Source: Cytophagales bacterium
Lineage (GTDB): Bacteria; Bacteroidota; Bacteroidia; Cytophagales; UBA9547
DNA: 64,000 bases
Assembly (NCBI GenBank): GCA_013297755.1
Contig: JAAFIH010000013.1
Location: 1-64,000, forward strand
Direction of reading: 5' to 3'
Shown: positions 20,551 to 61,420 of the stretch, piece by piece
Layout of the letters: the number at the start of each line of letters is the position of its first letter
Position numbering within the stretch: position 1 is the stretch's first letter
Notes under the pieces: model-generated
Seen by the model: the letters and a program-made list of their open reading frames with translations, nothing else
Told to the model about the DNA's origin: nothing
Database searches by the model: none
Program-made: the position numbers and the translations under genes

Positions 20551-20668
20551 GGAACTTCTAAAAACCATAATTTAATTTCAAAAACCCCACCCAAACCAAT
20601 TTCTGTTTCGATGCCACAGAATCCAAGAGGGAGGGCTTTATAGGAATTAGGGTTTTTAGAAGTTCCCT
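20551..20668. mobile_element. family A MITE-like element, copy A1
   Basis: 118 bp beginning GGGAACTTCTAAAAACC and ending in its inverse complement (GGGTTTTTAGAAGTTCCC). It is flanked by the 4-bp duplication TAAT. It is about 98% identical to copy A2 at 43442. It fills part of the 567-base gap upstream of moxR; no gene is seen in the rest of that gap. Confidence 0.85.
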
Positions 20669-20840
20669 AATGACTATTTCCTTTTGGATAAATCTGAAAA
20701 GGGCATATTCAAAAAAAATTTCGTAAATATTTAATAGATTCAATAAATCAAAAAAACATTCATTTGAACGACTTGATATATAATATAAATTTGAATTAGA
20801 GATAAATTTTTTAATTTTTATTTATAATTTTTTAAATCCT

Positions 20841-23141: not shown

Positions 23142-23327
23142 TTTATAATAAATTTCATTAATATGAGCATAGTAAATAATGTCGTTTACTTAACCATTTT
23201 TTATTGCCTGTATGTTAGTATTTCTCCAAAGGATATAGTAAATAATATTCTTAAGTAAACAACATTGTTATGGCAAAAGCAAATCTATGATTAGTAATAA
23301 GTATTGGTTTAATATTAAATAAATGTA

Positions 23328-27092: not shown

Positions 27093-27109
27093 TTTGAAAT
27101 GTAGTCTAT

Positions 27110-27224
27110 TTATATCAAACCGAAAAATTAAAATTACATTCCTATAATTTTTCTCCCACTTGGGAAGAAATTAAAAGAAGGGTTTAAAATAAAATTGAAA
27201 TATTTGCTTTTCGGTTCAATTTAA
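27110..27224 (+). mobile_element. family B palindromic repeat, copy B1
   Basis: 115 bp starting TATATCAAACCGAAAA and ending TTTTCGGTTCAAT, with a central TTCTCCCA..TGGGAAGAA hairpin. It begins 18 bases after the GH3 stop. The remainder of the 473-base gap to the kinase gene is AT-rich without a gene. Confidence 0.9.
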
Positions 27225-27565
27225 TAAAACAAAAAATGATAAAAATTTCAGCATTTTGATTACAAATATCTTTTTTTGGTATAATTTTAGATTTTTTTTA
27301 CTGCCCAAAACTACTTTTTAGATTTTTATTTATTGTGTATCTTATTACTATTATTATGGTTATAATTTAGTAAATATTTCTGTAAAAAAATTTTTTTTGA
27401 TAATTTTTATGTTTATCTCTGTTTTTTCGATGAATAATGATTTTTTGTAAAATAATATTTTTAGTATTGCATAAAGAATGAAGTTGTTCGTCATTGGCAT
27501 ATCAAATTAAGAAAAAAATAAACAACAATTATATAACTTGCTTTGGTTTATAAATAAGATAATTA

Positions 27566-34341: not shown

Positions 34342-34365
34342 ACAAAACTAAAATTTACTGAAGCT

Positions 34366-34418
34366 AACGTATTTAAAAATATTATAAGTTGTAATAATAA
34401 AATATTACTTTTTAAATA
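34366..34418 (+). repeat. family C left-end fragment (C3)
   Basis: Matches the first 50 bases of family C (AACGTATTTAAAAATATTATAA...) but has lost the CAGGGC terminus. The rest of the 423-base gap before cheB shows no gene. Confidence 0.6.
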
Positions 34419-34764
34419 AAATTTTATGAAACATTTACATCAAAATCTTATCCCATTTTTGAGCTATAAGCATTGAGTAAAATTTATTGGTATGGGATTT
34501 AAAAAATGGTAAGTTTGTAGAAAATATCATACCTGATTTTGACCTGTATTCTAATAAATAAATAATAAAGCCAAAATAATTACGCTTTTTTTGAAAAAAT
34601 CCCTTTTCTTTTAGGTATTTTACACATACACTAGAATTTGTTGTAGTAAGTCTGAAACAAGCTCAACGATAGTTATTTTGGTATTATAGTACATAAATAT
34701 TGATTAAATTTTATAAAATTGCAGAAAATTATATTTTTCACATCTTTTTTCTAATCAATCAATC

Positions 34765-35823: not shown

Positions 35824-35930
35824 AAAATAGTATAATATATAAGTAAGAAATATACTATCAAAATAATTTTAAATTTATAATAAAAGCACTAAAACATTAC
35901 TTTAAATATAATATTAGTTTTGCAAAACAG

Positions 35931-36045
35931 ATTATATCAAACCGAAAAATTAAGATTACATTCCTATAATTTTTCTCCCACTTGGGGAGAAATTAAATAG
36001 GGGTTATAAATAAAATTGTAATATTAGTTTTCGGTTCAATATAAT
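35931..36045 (+). mobile_element. family B palindromic repeat, copy B2
   Basis: 115 bp with ends ATTATATCAAACCGAAAA and the inverse of ATTATATTGAACCGAAAA (16 of 18 pairing). The central stem is TTTCTCCC/GGGAGAAA around ACTTG. It sits between cheB and cheA. Confidence 0.92.
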
Positions 36046-36110
36046 GACTTTATTTTTGAATTTTAAAATGATTTTTTTTATTACTAAAATTAGATAACTT
36101 TACCTACACG

Positions 36111-37906: not shown

Positions 37907-38222
37907 ATTATATCAAACCAAAAAATTATAATTACATTCCTATAATTTTTCTACCACTTGGGGCAGGGCAAACGCATTTAAAAATATTATAGTATAAAAT
38001 AGTAAAATATTACTAAAAAAGAATATTTTTTAAATAGTTGAATGTAAAGTCCCTCCCTTTGGATTCTGTGTATCAAACAGAAATTGGATTTAGGGTGGGG
38101 TTATTAAAATAATAGGTAATTTTATTTAAAATATTTTAAAAGATTTTGCCCTGCACTTGGGGTGAAATTAATAGAGGGGTTTAAAATAAAACTGTAATAT
38201 TTGTTTTTCGGTTAAATATAAT
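37907..38222 (+). mobile_element. family B palindromic repeat, copy B3, split by element C1
   Basis: The left half (37907-37963) and right half (38154-38222) together rebuild a normal B element. The break is at its central apex. Confidence 0.92.
37964..38153. mobile_element. family C element, complete copy C1
   Basis: 190 bp starting CAGGGCAAAC and ending TTTTGCCCTG (9-bp perfect inverted ends CAGGGCAAA). It is flanked on both sides by CACTTGGGG, a 9-bp target duplication. It has no coding capacity. The interior holds an inverted, shortened copy of the family A core. Confidence 0.92.
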
Positions 38223-41567: not shown

Positions 41568-41682
41568 TTATATCAAACCTAAAAATTAAAATTACATTCC
41601 TATAATTTTTCTCCCAGTTGGGAAAAAATTAAAAGAAGGGTTTAAAATAAAATTGTAATGTTTGTTTTTCGGTTCAATATAA
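41568..41682 (+). mobile_element. family B palindromic repeat, copy B4
   Basis: 115 bp, TTATATCAAACCTAAAA to TTTTCGGTTCAATATAA, beginning 15 bases after the preceding stop codon. The following 300 bases up to 41987 are AT-rich and show no gene. Confidence 0.9.
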
Positions 41683-43441: not shown

Positions 43442-43560
43442 GGGAACTTCTAAAAACCCATAATTTAATTTCAAAAACCCCACCCTAACCAATTTCTGTT
43501 TCGATGCCACAGAATCCAAGAGGGAGGGCTTTATAGGAATTAGGGTTTTTAGAAGTTCCC
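43442..43560. mobile_element. family A MITE-like element, copy A2
   Basis: 119 bp with perfect 18-bp inverted ends GGGAACTTCTAAAAACCC. It is flanked by the 4-bp duplication TTAT. Only a couple of differences from A1, so one or both moved recently. Confidence 0.9.
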
Positions 43561-43642
43561 TTATAAAAATGCTATTTAATATAATATCAATAGATTTAAA
43601 AGTTTTTGATAAAAAAAATTTTTAAACCAATAGCTACATTTA

Positions 43643-44320
43643 TTACTCTATAGTAGTTGTTTCTAGCAACAATTTATCCATATCAAACATCAATTTATTG
43701 ACATCGTTTTCGTTGGTGCCATCGTAATATCCTCTTATATTTTTGTGGGTATCTACAAGTACAAATTTTTCGGTATGCACAAAATCATCAGCCCCGCCAT
43801 CTCCCTGAGTGGCTGTCACGTAATAGGCCTCACGGGCCATATTGTATAAATCTACTTTAGAACCAGTAAGAAAATGCCAATGATTACCCTTAGCAACTCC
43901 TTGTTTTTGAGCATATTCTAAAAGCACACTTGGTGTATCGCTCTCTGGGTTTACTGTATGCGAAAGCAATACTACTGATGGGTTGTTTTTGTAAGCCTCA
44001 AAAACTCGTTTCATTTGTGCAGTCATTTTTACACAAATACCAGGACAGTTTACAAAAAAGAAATCTGCTACATAGATTTTGTTTTTAGTAATATTTGATG
44101 TAATGGTGTCGCTGTGTTGATTGATAAAACTAAAATCTTTGACAACGTGATACATAGTGTCTATCTTTGGTTGCCCATCAACCATTGTGGTATCAAATCT
44201 ATCGAAACCATAATATGGTAGCAATGACTTAGGTTTACGATTGCTGTGATTTTTTTGGTAAAAAAACATAAAAACCAACACTGCACATAATCCTAAGGAT
44301 ATACCAATAATTTTTTTCAT
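43643..44320 (-). CDS. SCO1/SenC family copper-chaperone-like thioredoxin-fold protein
   Basis: 225 residues from the Met at 44320 (a longer frame to 44350 exists). An N-terminal membrane anchor is followed by the SCO domain with the copper ligands in FVNCPGICVKM (CxxxC) and the His in DDFVHTEKFVLVD. SCO proteins deliver copper to cytochrome c oxidase or act as thiol reductases outside the inner membrane. No oxidase genes are nearby. Its first codons are contained in the 163-base stretch that is duplicated at 49351. Confidence 0.88.
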   Translation of the reverse strand: MKKIIGISLGLCAVLVFMFFYQKNHSNRKPKSLLPYYGFDRFDTTMVDGQPKIDTMYHVVKDFSFINQHSDTITSNITKNKIYVADFFFVNCPGICVKMTAQMKRVFEAYKNNPSVVLLSHTVNPESDTPSVLLEYAQKQGVAKGNHWHFLTGSKVDLYNMAREAYYVTATQGDGGADDFVHTEKFVLVDTHKNIRGYYDGTNENDVNKLMFDMDKLLLETTTIE

Positions 44321-44464
44321 TCCTATTTTATTAAAACCCAAAAATGACATTGATAGTATTCAATACTTGTTTTTGAAAAACTATTATTAAATAACCATTT
44401 ATAGGAAATAATGTTATGGTAGAGTTTTTATTTTTACAGAAATGGATAAAAAATATTTTGGCGT
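44302..44464. repeat. 163-bp direct duplication, copy 1
   Basis: About 95% identical to 49351-49516. It covers the start and upstream region of the SCO gene and ends at TTTTGGCGT, after which the two loci differ. Confidence 0.88.
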
Positions 44465-44552
44465 TACATGACTTGGTAATTGTGGATCCTATCTATGATA
44501 TTTCCAAAAAAAGTGAGTCTTTTGATACTACTATTTCCTAAAATATTTTTTT

Positions 44553-44606
44553 TAAAGTAATATTTTATTATTATTACTTGTAATATTTTTAAATGTGTTT
44601 GCCCTG
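44553..44606 (-). repeat. family C left-end fragment (C4)
   Basis: Read on the minus strand it starts CAGGGCAAACACATTTAAAA and continues like C1 and C3 for about 50 bases. The right end is not found. Confidence 0.65.
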
Positions 44607-49350: not shown

Positions 49351-49516
49351 TCAATAATTTTTTTTCATTCCTTCCTATTTTATTAAAACCCAAAAATGAC
49401 ATAGATAGTATTCAATACTTGTTTTTGAAAAACTATTATCGAATAACCATTTACAGGAAATAATGTTATGGTAGAGTTTTTATTTTTACAGAAATGGATA
49501 AAAAATATTTTGGCGT
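49351..49516. repeat. 163-bp direct duplication, copy 2
   Basis: Copy of 44302-44464. Here it lies directly before the methyltransferase gene and no longer belongs to a SCO gene. Confidence 0.88.
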
Positions 49517-54545: not shown

Positions 54546-54570
54546 ATTGAAAATCACAGGCGGTAAATTA

Positions 54571-54616
54571 GGCATTTTTTAATGCCTTAGTCTAAGGCTT
54601 TCTCCAAAAGAGAAAG
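54571..54616 (+). other. two tandem hairpins after the DUF4292 gene
   Basis: GGCATT/AATGCC at 54571-54586 and CTTTCTC/GAGAAAG at 54598-54616. No strong T-run follows, so a terminator role is uncertain. Confidence 0.4.
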
Positions 54617-54663
54617 ATAATCTGATTATTAAGTAAACGACTTTGTATTGAAATCATTAAAAA

Positions 54664-54782
54664 AAACTTTTAAAAACCTCAAATTTATTTTCAAAAACCC
54701 CACATCTAAACAAATTTCTATTACGATACCTTAGAACCAATATAGGAGCTCTTCCAATGAATTGAAGTTTTTTGAAGTTTCC
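54664..54782. mobile_element. family A element, diverged copy A4
   Basis: 119 bases, AAACTTTTAAAAACCTC to TTTTTTGAAGTTTCC, with the family A interior still readable (CAAAAACCCCAC...CAAATTTCT...GATACC). Confidence 0.65.
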
Positions 54783-54796
54783 TAAATTTATAAAAT

Positions 54797-61270: not shown

Positions 61271-61420
61271 CAGGGCAAATGCATTTAAAATTATTATACG
61301 TTAAAATAATAAAATTTTAAGAAATAGTAATATCAAAAACCCACCCTTTTGGATACTGCAACAGGGTAACAGAAATTGGGTTTGGGCTTAAAAAAATTTT
61401 GGGATTTTTTTAAAATTTCA
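61271..61420 (+). mobile_element. family C element, copy C2, right end unclear
   Basis: Starts CAGGGCAAATGCATTTAAAA just after the AraC stop and contains a diverged A-type core (GGATACTG...ACAGAAATTGGG). The matching TTTGCCCTG end is not found. The rest of the 582-base gap to 61851 holds a terminator and a -7 box. Confidence 0.65.

Follow-up and report, generated by a model that had tools for sequence, protein, structure and literature searches.

A family B palindromic repeat interrupted by element C, a 190-bp ISAs1-type MITE, occupies positions 37,907 to 38,222 of the window (the 64,000-nucleotide stretch of a Cytophagales bacterium contig analysed here; Table 1). Direct reading of the sequence confirmed that CACTTGGGG stands on both sides of a 190-bp piece with perfect 9-bp inverted ends, as stated in the original prediction, the outermost bases being CAGGGCAAA (37964-37972) on the left and TTTGCCCTG (38145-38153) on the right. 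The 9-bp perfect match is a property of the window copy, and the ends of the family are longer (CAGGGCAAACGCATTTAA and beyond), with the right end of the window copy altered. When C and one CACTTGGGG were removed, the flanks corresponded to B as had been proposed, with 88.9–89.8% identity over 115–118 bp to the three other copies in the window (E-values 1e-39 to 5e-44). The insertion point was likewise correctly placed in the hairpin loop of B, since the duplicated 9 bp include the whole ACTTG terminal loop of the copy at 35928-36048, a single long hairpin with a fold z of -5.5. Such strong folding is not universal among B copies (z -0.2 for 27109-27229), and the interrupted copy of the window is an imperfect palindrome at its apex. 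In the window, C is too short at 190 bp to encode a transposase and is overlapped by no listed ORF of ≥100 aa, and it has the attributes by which MITEs are recognised, being short, non-coding and bounded by terminal inverted repeats (9 bp perfect, 18 or more bp imperfect).

Table 1. Coordinates of element C, the repeat that it interrupts and related repeats (window positions unless a locus is named)
Feature	Position	Strand	Remarks
Left half of family B palindromic repeat, including first duplication copy	37907..37963	+	93-95% identity to three other B copies; nhmmer, B positions 1-57
Target-site duplication, left copy CACTTGGGG	37955..37963	.	Spans B hairpin loop; read directly
Element C, 190-bp ISAs1-type MITE	37964..38153	+	
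C left terminal inverted repeat CAGGGCAAACGCATTTAA	37964..37981	+	0 mismatches; also at the L118 ISAs1 element
C right terminal inverted repeat CAGGGCAAAATCTTTTAA	38136..38153	-	1 scored mismatch to family pattern
C internal hairpin core (C positions 84-144)	38047..38107	.	Common to MITE families B (tip-2 copies) and D and to other palindromes
Target-site duplication, right copy CACTTGGGG	38154..38162	.	Read directly
Right half of same family B repeat	38154..38222	+	87% over 38154-38221; nhmmer
Intact B copy, comparison	27110..27225	+	
Intact B copy	35928..36048	+	Folds as long hairpin
Intact B copy, comparison	41568..41682	+	
Old degenerate C-family copy	34363..34546	+	Model positions 5-190
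Partial C-family copy	44504..44606	-	Model positions 1-99
Degenerate C-family copy	61271..61417	+	Model positions 1-170
MITE D, carries hairpin core of C	20553-20671, 43445-43564, 54665-54785		Ends GGGAACTTCTAAAAACC
Palindromic repeat E, 89 bp	23178-23266, 54561-54643		Ends AATGTCGTTTACTTA, apex CTCCTTTGGAG
B copies with alternative tip	L197:13183-13308, L197:15243-15372, L222, L236, L237, L240		

A search of the window against Rfam gave no family at the gathering threshold. The palindromic repeat E had 49 non-overlapping matches in 1.26 Mb. By eye, B copies were seen inside the end of E at several loci (L191, L196, L024 and L044), seemingly at one point (CTTA/TA), and an E copy was seen within B at L189, flanked on either side by a repeat of about 11 bp. 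A different hairpin repeat, also present near 15113 in L189, contributes a 90-bp piece that breaks the apex of the B copy at L196:18939-19028, and no clean duplication accompanies it. The window further contains a pair of about 595 bp (123-716 and 983-1575, 96% identical) overlapping neighbouring reverse-strand ORFs, and a 165-bp pair (44305-44464 and 49352-49516, 94% identical) that did not match the models of B, C190, C142, D or E.

Copies of C were sought in the genome to which the window belongs (4.24 Mb, 70 contigs), with the best 40 of 385 candidates scored for C and the best 40 of 160 for B, and the places of the end pattern listed in part, so that the copy numbers of both families are lower bounds. 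The end pattern CAGGGCAAANNCATTTAA was found at 95+90 sites in the genome scan with up to 3 mismatches, compared with 25+25 for the reversed control, and C occurs in two size classes, of about 170–230 bp and 142 bp. The 81 pairings of ends include chance pairings and second partners of one copy; a set of 40 two-ended copies was defined at 40 distinct places (135–235 bp, up to 5 end mismatches), of which the most degenerate may be chance. Of these 40, 24 are flanked by 9-bp duplications that differ at no more than one position, and 17 of the duplications are perfect. When the right flanks were shuffled among the 40 copies, such duplications averaged 0.6 with a maximum of 5, which excludes chance as the source of those observed, and dispersed copies with duplications of constant length are a further mark of a MITE. 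The other 16 copies have 2–7 mismatches in the 9-bp register, although in one of them, L020, a duplication of 8 bp lies out of register. Together with a composite element of 695 bp (L015), which is outside the 40, the 24 make up the 25 duplication-bearing copies considered below. Further copies with 9-bp duplications, whose absence had been named as refuting the original prediction, were thus found outside the window, 16 of them perfect and 8 with one mismatch.

Among 58 relatives searched (best 13 candidates or fewer each), C was matched in two, the genus-mates G001 and G002. These matches cover mostly the core of C (positions 84-144), and some lie inside elements with other ends, while one in G002 (contig C22) is near full length (positions 4-161, 72%). 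The gene to the right of the locus is present in both genus-mates at 70–72% identity; the left neighbour lies outside the flank examined.

A scan of named genomes with one 21-base end matched 14 stretches. In a Bacteroidales MAG (L118), an ISAs1 element of 1,247 bp (801-2047) is bounded by CAGGGCAACCGCATTTAA and CAGGGCAAACGCATTTAA and flanked by a perfect 10-bp duplication, its 18-bp ends being equal to those of C or one base off. Its transposase frame is interrupted, with both parts matching NF033564 (transpos_ISAs1) at 289 and 87 bits (cut-off 70), as well as Pfam DDE_Tnp_1_assoc and DDE_Tnp_1. The same-genus genome G002 contains an element of 1,239 bp (L135) with ends CAGGGCAACCGCTTTTAAA, a close variant of those of C, and a 378-aa ISAs1 transposase (346 bits); a clean duplication was looked for around this element and none was found. 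Derivation from ISAs1 is indicated by the same ends around an ISAs1-family transposase gene, as seen in both L118 and L135. Target duplications of the ISAs1 family are generally 8–10 bp.

In the genome of the window, matches to PF13808 (the ISAs1-type domain) were present only at the ends of contigs C63 and C40, with inner end sequences differing from those of C, and domain searches found no complete ISAs1 gene in the assembly. Four contigs (C10, C14, C25 and C27) break off about 126 bp inside an element with the ends of C, and the flanks are common to C14 and C27 (CTAAAGGAG, 9/9) and to C25 and C10 (GATTATAT, 8/9). These pieces probably belong to a resident ISAs1 element, of which the assembler collapsed two or more copies; its body is missing from the assembly and its identity is taken from its ends. 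Past the 18-bp ends, the left side of C190 resembles resident end 2 (0/200 shuffles as good) and its right side resident end 1 (1/200), which are the best two results among 16 comparisons scored against shuffles, and the 142-bp class is less like the resident ends (best 3/200). A 24-residue C-terminal peptide at contig C10 gave no family match. A transposase gene between ends like those of C was seen in the ISAs1 elements of L118 and G002, and the assembly of the window's own genome contains end pieces without a complete gene.

Other transposases of this genome were also considered. Two further DDE_Tnp_1 genes, with frames of 500 and 631 aa, fit worse than ISAs1 as the parent of C, as no end within fewer than 4 mismatches of those of C lies nearby. 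The 631-aa gene (L114, C69:51452-52303) has flanking inverted ends CAAGCCCAACTGATTTAA at 4 mismatches, a faint likeness, and no end closer than 5 mismatches was found around the other. Since the ends near these genes are at least 4 mismatches away from those of C, ISAs1 is preferred as parent. Transposases of the REP-associated (Y1) type, with ten Y1_Tnp matches in the genome, were discarded as movers of C, since the inverted ends and 9-bp duplications of C point to a DDE enzyme.

Judged from its terminal sequences, the transposase family behind C is ISAs1, and this identity is firm. The proposal that C is non-autonomous holds as well, as it lacks a transposase, has ends of the ISAs1 family and carries 9-bp duplications in many copies. 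Cut-and-paste chemistry is known from DDE transposases. C probably arose as a deletion derivative of the resident ISAs1-family insertion sequence, and a DDE transposase encoded elsewhere in the genome would recognise the CAGGGCAAACGCATTTAA ends and move it; the target would be cut with a 9-bp stagger and C joined, and gap repair would then produce the 9-bp duplication, with the loop of the B palindrome having served as the target at the window locus. The resident element would accordingly be a complete, active ISAs1 element that mobilises C by cut-and-paste.

The original prediction had also suggested that the transposase favours hairpin structures. Empty sites were rebuilt for the 25 duplication-bearing copies, for L004 (which has no duplication and is hence outside the 25) and for the two resident-element sites, and were compared with profiles of the repeats B, E, C and D. 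The exact apex of a repeat was hit in 2 of the 25. The empty site of the window corresponds to B 2-115 (E-value 3.3e-31, profile search), and that of L105, a copy of the 142-bp class with the duplication CTTTTGGAG/CTTTTGAAG, to E 2-89 (E-value 1.6e-19); in both, the apex is base 4 of the 9 duplicated bases, and hence in the same register. The left flank of L004, which is of the 190-bp class, matches E 1-43 and stops at the junction (E-value 2.4e-10), at the same position of E as L105, while its right flank is a B copy and the right half of E is gone. Among the others, L012 sits in the apical loop of another, older C copy, L024 meets E at its outer end (by motif) and L006 borders on weak matches to B and C (E-value about 3e-4), and the rest fall outside these repeats or just next to them. 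Altogether 22 of the 25 lie away from the tips of B, E, C and D, the repeats modelled.

The background for apex hits was taken from 1.264 Mb of sampled sequence with 182,768 intergenic bases and the apexes of 36 B and 50 E copies, a slight overcount, allowing 3 or 5 central positions per apex, with or without 37 C/D cores. Under these settings 0.04–0.09 exact hits (about 0.1) are expected for 28 sites, and the binomial probability of the 2/25 observed is 0.0006–0.003. As the window copy itself had suggested the palindrome hypothesis, the test was also run with the window omitted, which gave 1/24 (P 0.03–0.08), or 2/27 when L004 and the two resident sites were added (P 0.0007–0.004). The apex count includes repeat entries for the interrupted copies of the window and of L197, making the test slightly conservative.

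The insertion at the B apex may nevertheless be due to chance, with C having no structural preference and intergenic palindromic MITEs merely being common targets. The palindromy of the 25 empty sites was not raised above that of 62,772 intergenic positions from a 464-kb sample (Mann-Whitney P 0.63), with none of the 25 exceeding the 99th percentile and the window site ranking at 27%, and a preference for palindromes in general was rejected on these grounds. Matches to B, E, C and D make up 8% of the sampled intergenic DNA, and three of the 25 insertions are clearly inside them (window, L105 and L012), and 22 do not lie at a tip of these repeats. However, three of the four insertions within the body of B or E are central (window, L105 and L004, with L024 the exception; P about 0.0005), as are two of three with the window omitted (P about 0.007), and counting L012 and L006 as misses still gives 3/6 (P 0.002) and 2/5 (P 0.02), respectively. 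In addition, L105 and L004, of different size classes, share nine E bases in different copies, and the shared register of the B and E hits is not what chance would suggest. We give coincidence a little under an even chance of being the explanation.

Alternatively, sequence rather than structure may be favoured, with targets like CNNTTGGAG or CTAAAGGAG that palindrome tips happen to hold. The apex targets are CACTTGGGG, CTTTTGGAG and CCTTTGGAG, the resident element sits at CTAAAGGAG in a site that none of the models of B, E, D and C matched, and the information content of the nine bases is slightly higher than in 500 random intergenic draws (P 0.008 oriented, 0.018 symmetrised). This excess is small, however, many duplications fall outside the motif (for example AAAAATAAA, CTCAAAATT and ATAAATGAA), and a strict target motif was rejected because the preference is weak only, which makes the explanation a tentative one with perhaps a third of the weight. 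Recombination between palindrome tips, instead of transposition, could also have brought C into B, and the same tip in B, C, D and other repeats, the C/D hybrids L016 and L095 and the different repeat at the apex of the L196 copy of B, lacking a clean duplication, would fit such an event. It is highly improbable, however, as it does not predict both ends of C and a perfect 9-bp duplication in the window, like the 16 perfect cases outside B.

Transposition with a modest bias of C towards the apexes of certain palindromic repeats is therefore likely, with the numbers small and E recognised after the fact, and we consider this bias suggestive. It may have its basis in extruded or replication-exposed hairpins, or in a GGAG/GGGG sequence at the target end. 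A choice of palindromes by C, which would be the stronger claim, finds no support, and C does not require them, since most of the insertions examined lie elsewhere. An insertion sequence specific for REPs would have all or most of its copies at a fixed point of a repeated palindrome and targets more palindromic than background, and neither was found for C. The suggested liking of the transposase for hairpins is thus weakly supported by the 2/25 exact apex hits, and the 22/25 insertions elsewhere and the unraised palindromy speak against it. The account as a whole, in which C is a MITE derived from a resident ISAs1-family insertion sequence, with a likely modest bias to apexes and no need for palindromes, is in our view very probable.

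The hairpin core of C contains TTGGATTCTGTG...CAGAAATTGG, and related tips are found in other families. A loose tip pattern occurred 38 times in the 1.264-Mb sample, and 29 of the occurrences fall within matches to the models of B, C or D. Some such places are other repeats that match the models by their core alone, and the remaining 9 look like chance. In six full-length B copies the tip TTGGATTCTGTGGCATCGTAACAGAAATTGG replaces the usual B apex CACTTGGGGAG, and 24 are without it. The B copy in L240 and the D copy in L242 are identical over 46 bp at the tip with unrelated ends, and the C copy in L196 has 31 bp of tip in common with both. The arms of the six alternative-tip copies are slightly more alike (96.2% identity) than those of other B copies (92.6%), and a single exchange followed by spread is thus possible. 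The ends of the tip-sharing MITE families differ, which suggests that they are moved by different transposases; for D, apparent 4-bp duplications (TAAT and TTAT) were noted by eye at the first two window copies. Hybrids joined at the shared core were found as L016 (C23:125419-125562) and L095/L062 (C1:124003), with D-left/C-right and C-left/D-right arrangements, and the outer nine bases of L016 and L095 agree at 7/9 positions (by eye), as reciprocal recombination would leave. Several copies of the tip form an irregular array at L237 (253-2334) and L252 (contig C56, near 103326), close to one of the ten Y1_Tnp matches. The tips of palindromic mini-transposons could serve as general sites of exchange and landing, with extruded or replication-exposed hairpins attracting transposition as well as strand exchange, and Y1 transposases possibly seeding the process, but we regard this as unlikely.

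Element C is an ordinary kind of element, an ISAs1-type MITE, in an interesting place. The abundant mini-transposon of this Bacteroidota-like genome can now be assigned to a transposase family, and a structural idea has been made countable, as the frequency with which ISAs1-type elements land on hairpin tips. If true, a mild apex bias of ISAs1 adds a family to those that target REPs and helps to separate structure from sequence preference, and the tip common to MITEs whose ends differ naturally records an exchange among mobile elements.

No published description of C was found in the open-licence literature on ISAs1, MITEs and hairpin targets. Insertion sequences of the ISAs1 family (NCBIfam NF033564) share the CAGGG ends of C, and the autonomous members, of about 1.24 kb, have 18-bp ends identical or nearly identical to those of C, whereas C has no transposase and its hairpin-core middle is absent from the autonomous relatives L118 and L135. 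A bacterial MITE from a resident insertion sequence has been described in Cardinium, where MITECca01 derives from ISCca4 of the IS982 family (PMC9769881). As reported there, this element is, like C, short and geneless, with the ends and subterminal bases of the resident insertion sequence and many intergenic copies, some inside mobile elements, but C differs in its transposase family, in occurring as two size classes of 142 and about 190 bp and in a core common to unrelated MITEs.

Insertion sequences targeting REPs are known from the IS3, IS110, IS4, IS256 and IS5 families, with ISPsy8, ISPa11, ISPpu9/10 and ISRm22 as examples (Tobes and Pareja 2006, PMC1525189); the name ISAs1 is absent from the main text of that study. 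REP-specific elements there had, for example, 5/5, 6/6 or 7/7 of their copies in REPs (PMC1525189). As described for ISPsy8 and ISRm22, insertion splits a repeated palindrome on its symmetry axis and creates a short duplication (PMC1525189), which is also the case for C in the window. The geometry is therefore shared but the exclusivity is not, as these elements were in REPs in every copy and only a small minority of C copies occupies such sites. In IS1272, new insertions targeted inverted-repeat structures by inverted-repeat-replacing transposition (PMC5678879); in that description the inverted repeat is replaced without a duplication, whereas C keeps the palindrome and duplicates 9 bp of its target.
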